Assembly (NCBI RefSeq): GCF_000277645.1
Contig: NZ_AKGG01000016.1
Span: 191,117 to 255,116 of the forward strand
Length of the DNA stretch: 64,000 bases
Reading direction: 5' to 3'
From: Weissella koreensis KCTC 3621
Lineage (GTDB): Bacteria; Bacillota; Bacilli; Lactobacillales; Lactobacillaceae
The notes beneath the pieces are model-generated. The model did not search any database. It was not told the origin of the DNA and saw only the letters and a program-made list of their open reading frames with translations. Shown here in pieces: positions 47,939 to 51,644 of this stretch; the first letter of the stretch is position 1, and each line of letters begins with the position of its first letter. The position numbers and the translations under genes are program-made.

Positions 47939-47986
47939 CTATCTCAAATTTTTTAATCAGTCTTAAATTATTCTATTAATCAAAAA

Positions 47987-48640
47987 CTAATGATTAGTCA
48001 TATAATCAACAAACCGATTCAAATATTGCGGATCATTAATCCGTGCATTACACTCCGCACCATTACGGCAAATTAAATTTCCCCGCTTAGTGTAATTACC
48101 GGAAGCTCCGCGTGCTTTAAGTTTTACTGAAAACATTGAAACAGTACTCAACTCATGGCAGATTGCGCACAAACCATTCAACGGTTTAGGATCCATATCG
48201 CCATACAGACCAATATAACGTTGATTTTGCGGCATAATTAAATATTTCTTTTGATTCCCATAGTCATCCCAACCCCAATAAGTTTGTTGGTATCGGTCTG
48301 TTTCCCAATTACTAGGATATTGAACTTTTTTTTGCTTTTTAAAGAGTTTATCTATTTGTTTTTCATCCATCTCTGGGAAAGGTTGAACTAAACTTTTCAA
48401 CCCTTGCAAAGCCTTATCTGCACGTTCATGTGTACAGTCTTTCGCCAAGATAATTTCTAATAACTTTTCTACAACTGCTTCAGTTTTGATTTCCATTTCA
48501 TCTAACAACTTAATCAAATCTAGTTGTAAGACACCTATAACTTTACTATCATTAACTGACTTATAAGCGCTAATGACATGGTGAACTTCTTGACTAATTT
48601 GCACAAATTGAAATGGTTGTAATTGTTTTTCTTTTTCCAT
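47987..48640 (-). CDS. EF-G-binding zinc protein, FusB/FusC family
   Basis: 217-residue protein. An N-terminal helical domain (1-75) is joined to a C-terminal zinc domain with four cysteines at 158, 161, 191 and 197 (CAIC and ICRNGAEC). This fits FusB, which binds elongation factor G and frees it from fusidic-acid-stalled ribosomes. Aromatic stretches (YQQTYWGWDDYGNQKKYLI) match the family. Fourteen bases separate it from the upstream manA fusion stop and GTGAGGA gives its ribosome site, so it is co-transcribed with it. Resistance to fusidic acid is an inference; housekeeping members exist. Confidence 0.85.
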   Translation of the reverse strand: MEKEKQLQPFQFVQISQEVHHVISAYKSVNDSKVIGVLQLDLIKLLDEMEIKTEAVVEKLLEIILAKDCTHERADKALQGLKSLVQPFPEMDEKQIDKLFKKQKKVQYPSNWETDRYQQTYWGWDDYGNQKKYLIMPQNQRYIGLYGDMDPKPLNGLCAICHELSTVSMFSVKLKARGASGNYTKRGNLICRNGAECNARINDPQYLNRFVDYMTNH

Positions 48641-48654
48641 AATTCCTCACGTGA

Positions 48655-50388
48655 TTAACGTGATTTAGGGCCTGGCGTAGACATAATTAATGTCATTTTA
48701 CCCTTCAGAGTCCATTCCGCTACCGTAGCTGGCATCACAAAACTAGTTGCTAACTCCAACGGATAACTTTGACCATCAACAATGACTGTTCCTGAACCCG
48801 CGATCACTGTATATTGTGCATAAGGAGCCTGTTTAACGATATATGCTTCACCATCTAACTCATCCTTATACACATTAAAGTACGGTGCTTCCACCATAGT
48901 AGTTTCTTGTAACGCCCCCATTTGGAGCGTTCTTTGCGCGGGGCTTTCCGCCTTAAATGGAACAGTCGTGACATTTTTAGCATCTTCCAGATGCAAATCT
49001 CGTAATTCGCCAGTCTTCTTATCAGGACGATCAAAATCATACACTCGATAAGTTACGTCCGAACTCTGTTGCGTTTCAAGTGCCAAGACACCAGTTCCTA
49101 AGGCATGCAAAGTTCCAGATGGAACATAGAAAAAGTCACCCGCATGAACTGGAACTTTTTGCAAAAGATGTTCCCAATCAGCTTGATCAATCATTTGATT
49201 AAATTCAGCTTGTGTTTGAGCCTTATGACCATAATAAATCTCAGCGCCCGGTTTAGCTGCCAAAATATACCACGATTCAGTCTTACCCAATTCACCATTA
49301 TTATGTTCAGCAGCATAATCATCACCAGGATGAACTTGAACTGACAAATCTTGATGAGCATCTAAAAACTTCACTAAGAGGGGGTAAGGACGATTAACAT
49401 CATTATTTTCGAATAATTCAGGATGAGTTTGCCAAACTTCAGCTAATGTTTTACCAGCTAAAGGGCCACGGGAAATCGGTGAAACACCATTTTGATGGCC
49501 TGAAATAATCCAAGCCTCTCCCGTTGTATCACTTGGGATAGGTAAATCGAAAACATCTTTTAATGCCGTTCCGCCCCATATTTTTTCATGTAAAACTGGT
49601 GTTAAAAATAATGGCTCTGTCATATCAATTTCCCCTTCCTCGTTTTCCAATAAAACAACATTATCCCCCTCAATCCAACCTTGACTTCCTATTTCATACC
49701 AGTCATTTTTAGAAGGATCATGGACAATCTGAGTTAATAAAACGTCCAACCCAGCCATTAAAACATTCTTATGACTTCCATACGGTTTTGAGTAAACTGG
49801 AACTTGTTTCGTTTGATTACTAGCAAACAATCGGCCTCTTTTTTGAAGCGGTTGAGGATCCCAATCATAATGTTCAAATTTATTGCTAGTAGTGGCTTTA
49901 AAAGGGACTTGATTTGTTAAAATTTGATCATTAGCTTGTGCACCTTTTTTGATCGTCATTAACTTACGATCATAAAGAATCCACCTGGAATCACCCAATT
50001 GATGCCAAAAAAGTCCTTTTGTAGTTGACAGACGTTTAATCACCGGCCAAGTCCCTATAGTTAACGACTCTGATAGCATACTGTTTAAGTCAGGATTTGC
50101 ATAAGTTGGTGTAGGAGACTGGATTTCTACTTGATAATTAGTCAAGGCTTCAATTTGCGCAACATTCCCTTGGCGGTAATAGATCGTAACCCTTTGTAAT
50201 TGATCCGTAAAAAAACCTTCCAAGCTTCCATCGATATGATCAATAACATAATCATTAATGGTTTGTGGCTGCAATCGAAATGGCTTACCTAAATCACCCT
50301 CGATAATTTGTGCAGGTGCTAAATTTTTATTAGTACCTTGTTCTTTGGTATAAACCCAAATCGGCACTCCTTTTAACGCTAATCCCAT
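48655..50388 (-). CDS. manA: Mannose-6-phosphate isomerase fused to an N-terminal MucBP/SH3-like region
   Basis: 577-residue protein. Residues 256-577 are a complete class I mannose-6-phosphate isomerase (Man6P/Fru6P interconversion), with LFLTPVLHEKIWGGTALKD, zinc ligands in LSVQVHPGDDYA, the Glu in LGKTESWYIL, and PSGTLHALGTGVLALETQQ. The first ~255 residues look like surface-protein modules: a MucBP-like domain (about 8-72, with FTDQLQRVTIYYRQ) followed by two SH3/GW-like segments (about 110-165 and 190-250). No signal peptide or anchor is visible. AGGGG with good spacing lies before Met256 (49623), so a normal 322-residue ManA could also be made. GGGGAGG precedes the first ATG. Confidence 0.85.
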   Translation of the reverse strand: MGLALKGVPIWVYTKEQGTNKNLAPAQIIEGDLGKPFRLQPQTINDYVIDHIDGSLEGFFTDQLQRVTIYYRQGNVAQIEALTNYQVEIQSPTPTYANPDLNSMLSESLTIGTWPVIKRLSTTKGLFWHQLGDSRWILYDRKLMTIKKGAQANDQILTNQVPFKATTSNKFEHYDWDPQPLQKRGRLFASNQTKQVPVYSKPYGSHKNVLMAGLDVLLTQIVHDPSKNDWYEIGSQGWIEGDNVVLLENEEGEIDMTEPLFLTPVLHEKIWGGTALKDVFDLPIPSDTTGEAWIISGHQNGVSPISRGPLAGKTLAEVWQTHPELFENNDVNRPYPLLVKFLDAHQDLSVQVHPGDDYAAEHNNGELGKTESWYILAAKPGAEIYYGHKAQTQAEFNQMIDQADWEHLLQKVPVHAGDFFYVPSGTLHALGTGVLALETQQSSDVTYRVYDFDRPDKKTGELRDLHLEDAKNVTTVPFKAESPAQRTLQMGALQETTMVEAPYFNVYKDELDGEAYIVKQAPYAQYTVIAGSGTVIVDGQSYPLELATSFVMPATVAEWTLKGKMTLIMSTPGPKSR

Positions 50389-50415: not shown

Positions 50416-50913
50416 CTAATTATCCTCAACGGCAATATCAACAAATTCACTATGGACAAATTTGGCTATATCCTCAGCTTTCACCCGGATGGAACGACCA
50501 ACTTCACCCGCAGATAAAATTATTTCTCCAGCCTGTTGTGCTCGAATGTCAAAGTAGATTGGGAATTTCTTAGTTTGCCATATACCAACTGGATTATTAG
50601 CTCCGTGTACATACCCAGTAGTCTTTTGTAAGTCTTTGGTTGGAATCATATATGTTCGTTTATTACCAGAAATGGCGGCTAATTTTTTCTCACTTAAATG
50701 CATATCAATTGGCACAATCCCAATCAAAGGACCTGTTACATTTCCTTGTAATGCGAGCGTTTTATAGATATCATGTTCATTAATTTGATACTTTTCCAGT
50801 TCATCAGTCGATCGATCCATGCCATGACTAAAAATAATTGACTCATATGGTATATCTGCTTTATCCAATATTTGTTCTACTAAAATTTTTTTAATTCTAT
50901 CCTTTTTAGCCAT
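50416..50913 (-). CDS. ybaK: YbaK/EbsC-family aminoacyl-tRNA deacylase
   Basis: 165-residue trans-editing enzyme that hydrolyses Cys-tRNA-Pro or a related mischarged tRNA. Signature features are YKTLALQG with the catalytic lysine near 48, and TTGYVHGANNPVGIWQ near 110. The ATG at 50913 gives the usual N-terminus MAKKDRIKK; an ATG three codons earlier (50922) lies very close to GGGGGCC, so either start is possible. The gene is the first of a same-strand cluster with the manA fusion (27 bases on) and the FusB-like gene. Confidence 0.9.
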   Translation of the reverse strand: MAKKDRIKKILVEQILDKADIPYESIIFSHGMDRSTDELEKYQINEHDIYKTLALQGNVTGPLIGIVPIDMHLSEKKLAAISGNKRTYMIPTKDLQKTTGYVHGANNPVGIWQTKKFPIYFDIRAQQAGEIILSAGEVGRSIRVKAEDIAKFVHSEFVDIAVEDN

Positions 50914-51022
50914 AAAACACATCGGCCCCCTATTCGTATTATTCCTTATTACTATTATACCTGATCATTGATAATTAGAAGATTTTTTATAAAAACTTAT
51001 AGATTTATATTAAATTTGATAA

Positions 51023-51550
51023 TTATGACTCACTAGCTACATCACCATCAATTTCTATTAGCTGCATGCAAATAATCTTATAAATTACAGCTTGTATAGC
51101 CATTTGTTGAAAATCTGGAACTCCAAACGCTGCTTGCTGAAACTGTACAACGGGATTTTTAATATCTAATCCCGCCAAAGCATGATTGAAACGTTCCACA
51201 AAATTGTCATAAGCCACCTGGGTATTTTCTTTATTTGAGCCAAGTTGCTTAGCGACTCCCTTTTTGACCGTATCTAAAGGAAAAACCACCTTCATAATAC
51301 TGATCAAAATAATTTCGACCAATTGTTGCCTTTGATATTTTTTCTTAATAGGACGTTGAACCATATCATTTTTAACATAACTATTAATCATCGCTTTTGT
51401 GATTGTGGTCTGTAAAATTGGCGTAAAAATTTTATTCACCTCAGTCACTACTTGATCCATATATAAGTCCAAATCGGGTAAAGAATCCCAAGTTGGAATT
51501 TGTTGGCGCTGTAAATTTTCTAACCATCGTTTATATTCGATTGATTCCAT
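51023..51550 (-). CDS. DUF1836 protein
   Basis: 175-residue protein matching the DUF1836 pattern: WDSLPDLDLYMDQVVTEVNK, then ITKAMINSYVKNDMVQRPIKKKYQRQQL, shown here in parts (ITKAMINSYVKND and RPIKKKYQRQQL), then helices to the end. The MINSYVKN and KKYQRQQ parts resemble a MerR-like winged-helix region, so a DNA-binding role is possible. No function is known. It is divergent from the hemolysin III-like gene. Confidence 0.78.
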   Translation of the reverse strand: MESIEYKRWLENLQRQQIPTWDSLPDLDLYMDQVVTEVNKIFTPILQTTITKAMINSYVKNDMVQRPIKKKYQRQQLVEIILISIMKVVFPLDTVKKGVAKQLGSNKENTQVAYDNFVERFNHALAGLDIKNPVVQFQQAAFGVPDFQQMAIQAVIYKIICMQLIEIDGDVASES

Positions 51551-51644
51551 CTTGCATTTACCTCATCGCTCATCTTTTGTAAGTGTAATTATGGCACAAA
51601 AAACATATTTTGTCATCTTACGTAATATTCAATTCTACATAACC

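Follow-up and report, generated by a model that had tools for sequence, protein, structure and literature searches.

The window, a 64,000-nt stretch of DNA from the kimchi bacterium Weissella koreensis, contains on its minus strand a gene of one continuous frame (48655..50388), predicted to encode a 577-residue protein. The same fused frame is present in genomes G001 and G009 and in protein clusters P0010 and P0011. Residues 1–255 comprise a MucBP domain and two predicted SH3-like domains, and residues 256–577 make up an entire mannose-6-phosphate isomerase (ManA) of class I, the enzyme that interconverts mannose-6-phosphate and fructose-6-phosphate. The ManA part, 322 residues counted from an internal ATG at fusion residue 256, occupies 48655..49623 (-). 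It scored 204.4 bits against NCBIfam TIGR00218 (cut-off 116.2) and aligned nearly end to end with a solved relative, 1qwr (E 1.9e-93). Its HP, E and HAL motifs, which provide the metal ligands of class I ManA, are in register with those of 1qwr.

The N-terminal half was assigned by profile and by predicted fold. The MucBP domain spans about residues 5–76 (50161..50376, -), and within it residues 17–72 matched PF06458 with 37.7 bits, above the gathering cut-off of 23. The first SH3/GW-like domain (about residues 77–150; 49939..50160, -) is called on thin evidence, namely the AF2 model and a match to 5leo at residues 71–147. The second (about residues 176–248; 49645..49863, -) is called from the AF2 model and from matches to 1m9s, 9kz1 and other SH3b structures. 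No SH3b or GW match above the Pfam cut-off was seen in the fusion protein. Among the ten proteins searched, there were near-misses for L024 (SH3_3, 23.5 versus 27; GW, 17.5 versus 21) and P0002 (SH3_3, 26.5 versus 27), and the remaining eight gave no SH3_3 or GW match. Predicted structures and structure matches nonetheless place an SH3-like fold in two stretches of this half. The first-pass annotation had described a single frame joining a MucBP segment, two SH3/GW-like segments and a complete class I ManA, and both the frame and the domain calls hold. It had also proposed searching the N-terminal 255 residues against domain databases and by structure prediction, and named absence of a MucBP or SH3 fold as fatal to its reading; MucBP passed the Pfam cut-off, SH3 was recovered by predicted fold only, and both folds are thus supported. 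An alternative identity as internalin J (NCBIfam) was discarded, as scores fell far below the cut-off and were confined to the MucBP part. Models of the whole fusion, built from a 29-row alignment, had mean pLDDT values of 63.6 to 81.1 across five models; pTM was 0.56, confidence was low at residues 249–252, and there was no confident arrangement or sign of the two halves packing together.

The fused gene probably shares an operon with both of its neighbors. Upstream, after a 27-nt gap, lies a gene for a YbaK-like aminoacyl-tRNA deacylase (50416..50922, -), a homologue of which is also found 5' of the pair in W. kandleri. Downstream, after a 14-nt gap, is a gene for a FusB/FBP-like EF-G-binding protein (47987..48640, -), followed by a terminator-like hairpin at 47940–47911. 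The protein encoded at 47987–48640 is a FusB-family homologue, but its scores do not come near the NCBIfam thresholds that define named resistance proteins. A DUF1836 protein gene (51023..51550, -) is possibly the first gene of the operon. A promoter-like site occurs at 51616–51588, but such sites are rarer than in shuffled sequences (11 versus 16.4).

Could the fused frame be an error of sequencing or assembly? The first-pass annotation had named a frameshift joining two genes as the way its reading would fail. Yet the frame recurs in G001, G009 and P0011, which are independent copies, so a frameshift or base error is vanishingly improbable. In G001 the fused frame differs from that of the window at 7 nucleotides, of which the N-terminal part accounts for 6; the window as a whole shares 84% of sampled 31-letter words with the G001 contig. 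G009, which belongs to another species, is 74.1% identical to the window in the N-terminal part and 91.9% in ManA; the corresponding values for P0011 are 83.5% and 95.3%. The fusion is borne by two protein clusters: P0010, whose 12 members are of the same kind as the window's protein, and P0011, with 8 members. Neither G001 nor G009 has a manA match other than the fused gene. Between window and G009, dN/dS is low for both halves (0.032 and 0.049), the value for the N-terminal part being a rough figure as its dS is saturated (4.8). The fused reading frame at 48655–50388 is genuine and no artefact.

Elsewhere in Weissella, the two parts are usually separate genes. A homologue of residues 1–255 lies immediately 5' of manA, on one strand, in 28/28 genomes of the genus that were examined. 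Junctions read directly showed the fusion in two (G001 and G009) and separate genes, 3 to 153 nt apart, in 26; this supplies the count of ManA fusions among Weissella that the first-pass annotation had called for. A scan of named genome contigs, which may omit genomes very near the window, yielded 21 loci, 19 of them in named Weissella records and two in metagenome-assembled genomes labeled 'Lactobacillaceae bacterium'. G026, for which an automated search gave an open frame of 621, was considered as a second, independent fusion and rejected: on direct reading, the upstream part ends in a TAG and more stops lie in frame between the genes. W. muntiaci, W. oryzae and G019 have an inter-gene gap of 122–153 nt. 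Within it, W. muntiaci (2511–2553 of locus L012) and G019 (2577–2603 of locus L020) carry a terminator-like hairpin; in W. oryzae (locus L017) none was found. Co-transcription of the pair is therefore not necessarily universal. By eye, a AAACGCTTAC-type stretch is visible ahead of manA in the W. muntiaci and W. oryzae loci. Transcription of manA in these two species is possibly separate and sugar-controlled. A search of 103 loci for the catabolite-repression consensus matched four, W. muntiaci and W. oryzae not among them.

The junctions of near outgroups show how the fusion arose. In L004 and in W. diestrammenae (L007), the stop of the upstream gene precedes manA by 15 and 19 nt, respectively, and is still 5' of the ribosome site. 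W. kandleri (L003) has a TAA 3 nt before the manA ATG, and here the Shine–Dalgarno (SD) sequence already falls within the upstream frame. At the junction of the window and of G009 there are in-frame codons and no stop. The Weissella pair, a compact MucBP-SH3-SH3 gene followed by manA, thus became one reading frame as the stop of the first gene shifted beyond the ribosome site of manA and later disappeared. FastTree trees of ManA (32 sequences), the upstream part (30) and the two concatenated (32) all placed the window, G001, G009 and P0011 in one clade, with support of 0.998, 0.999 and 1.0, respectively. On this phylogenetic evidence, the fusion is of single origin and specific to the W. koreensis clade.

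The old start of manA has survived within the fused frame. Its SD sequence, GAGGAAGGGG (49632..49641, -), is now read as linker codons and lies within the 20 nt that precede residue 256. Pairing of these 20 nt with the anti-SD sequence gives a duplex energy of -12.1 kcal/mol, which ranks first among the 442 internal in-frame ATGs of 53 window ORFs, itself counted. The median for those 442 ATGs, the tested one included, was -2.65, versus -7.9 for the first ATGs of 53 long ORFs in the window; the internal SD is stronger than that at 47 of these 53, which are first ATGs and not verified starts. The manA SD has an energy of -12.4 in G009 and -9.1 in W. kandleri. Because both the old ATG and a strong SD persist, the locus probably yields two products, the 577-residue fusion and a free 322-residue ManA. 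The strong SD may also be a by-product of a linker rich in Glu and Gly. Linker residues vary by lineage (ENEEGEID, ENEGEGLA, ENMEGAID), with Glu and Gly kept, and among synonymous codings the chance of an equally strong SD was 0.15 for the window (not significant) and 0.05 for G009 (borderline). The linker residues of P0011 are compatible with an SD sequence as well: 92% of the codings sampled for them give -7.9 or a stronger energy.

Residues 1–255 represent, by profile search, an old, separate and compact family that is widespread in Lactobacillaceae. When 301 Lactobacillaceae genomes were searched with a 15-sequence profile, 227 had a match at E 1e-6 or better; the weak matches may be adhesins that share MucBP alone. 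Among the matches listed (at least 150, each in another genome, 15 of them Weissella), all had E 3.5e-31 or better and covered nearly the full model, and the MucBP-SH3 frames were 228–578 residues long. An order-wide search of 198 genomes gave 11 matches at 1e-20, all in Lactobacillaceae, and no profile match in 167 of the genomes. Outside Weissella, we inspected 20 loci (L082–L101) picked to span genera, some of them shortened by contig ends. None had manA near the family member within the stretch covered. Neighbors in these loci, with each cluster named from one member, were a Hsp100 Clp ATPase (16), release factor 3 (prfC; 14), HPr (12), PtsI (7) and glycerol-3-phosphate cytidylyltransferase (6). 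Longer MucBP-SH3 forms (339–377 residues; L094, L096, L097 and L101) have, by eye, an amphipathic-looking N-terminal helix and a basic stretch. These forms might attach to the inner face of the membrane.

Where would such proteins reside? MucBP and SH3 folds resemble adhesin and wall-binding modules, and one suggestion in the first-pass annotation was a moonlighting surface protein, whose modules would bind wall polymers or mucus and carry ManA to the surface. Its accompanying observation, that the fusion has no signal peptide, agrees with ours: by reading and crude hydropathy, rather than a signal-peptide program, no clear signal peptide was evident in any of 25 family members, that of the window included, and Weissella N-termini read directly gave the same result. 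The most hydrophobic N-terminus of the 25 was that of L092, where the start codon is a guess. Both termini of the fusion were read, and neither a signal peptide nor a wall anchor, as expected of a secreted adhesin, was seen. With no clear signal peptide on the fusion or on the family members examined, the surface proposal is unsupported, and we regard it as very improbable. The fusion and both of its halves are probably cytosolic.

We favor, as the probable account, a model in which the gene pair of the W. koreensis clade merged by stop loss and the merged gene gives two products. In this model each half still does what it did before the fusion, probably in the cytosol. Initiation at the first start would produce the 577-residue fusion, and initiation at the old internal start would produce free ManA. 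The ManA half would retain the isomerase role known for its family, and the MucBP-SH3 half would retain an ancestral role of its own, probably, to judge from its fold, the binding of a protein or polymer ligand. Overlapping with this account is the view that the linkage is a neutral accident without a role, free ManA doing the work. Retention of the free-ManA start and restriction of the fusion to one clade fit that view, yet the N-terminal half is open and conserved in three fused lineages with low, if saturated, dN/dS; at least this half therefore seems to be under selection, and we consider pure accident rather unlikely. Given the overlap, our confidence in these two accounts is not additive.

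Alternatively, the fusion could be the sole product and the covalent link functional, with MucBP-SH3 regulating, localizing or scaffolding ManA and so hard-wiring an older partnership of two proteins. The pair has stayed adjacent throughout Weissella although the upstream protein diverges, and three lineages retain the fusion. Yet the internal manA start is still present, no arrangement of the halves is confidently predicted in the full-length model, the wide gaps and hairpins noted above indicate that co-expression is not universal, and no manA accompanies the N-terminal family at the 20 loci outside Weissella. We judge this alternative unlikely, though regulation of ManA by the N-terminal part, the other suggestion of the first-pass annotation, is possible. 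More specifically, MucBP-SH3 might be an intracellular binding or regulatory factor of sugar-phosphate or PTS metabolism that was paired with manA in Weissella and then fused, one gene giving two forms of the isomerase, one fused and regulated, the other free; this idea is quite doubtful.

The fusion of the two genes, in a food bacterium, is real and lineage-specific. A literature search covering titles and abstract openings found no published account of this fusion or of the MucBP-SH3 family. With its traceable single origin, living intermediates and retained internal start, as read from the comparisons above, the locus should help in studying how neighbors in bacterial operons merge. MucBP-SH3 proteins lacking a clear signal peptide appear to be widespread in Lactobacillaceae, and domain names alone would misfile them as surface adhesins. 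The wider question raised is what role the MucBP-SH3 protein has within Lactobacillaceae cells.

Compared with known systems, residues 256–577 resemble class I ManA (TIGR00218; 1qwr) over almost their full length and share its conserved motifs; unlike that enzyme, the fusion has 255 extra N-terminal residues and is confined to one clade among the 28 Weissella genomes. With MucBP proteins (PF06458), such as repeat adhesins, it shares the MucBP fold at an above-cut-off Pfam score, whereas it is compact, has a single MucBP copy, lacks a clear signal peptide and has no wall anchor that we could see. Its two predicted SH3-like barrels recall the SH3b/GW wall-binding domains of InlB, lysostaphin and autolysins, yet they have no Pfam match and the fusion is apparently cytosolic. 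The stand-alone compact MucBP-SH3 proteins of Lactobacillaceae are homologues of residues 1–255; in contrast to the fusion, they are encoded by a separate gene, often (in the 20 non-Weissella loci) near those for Clp ATPase, HPr, PtsI or prfC.
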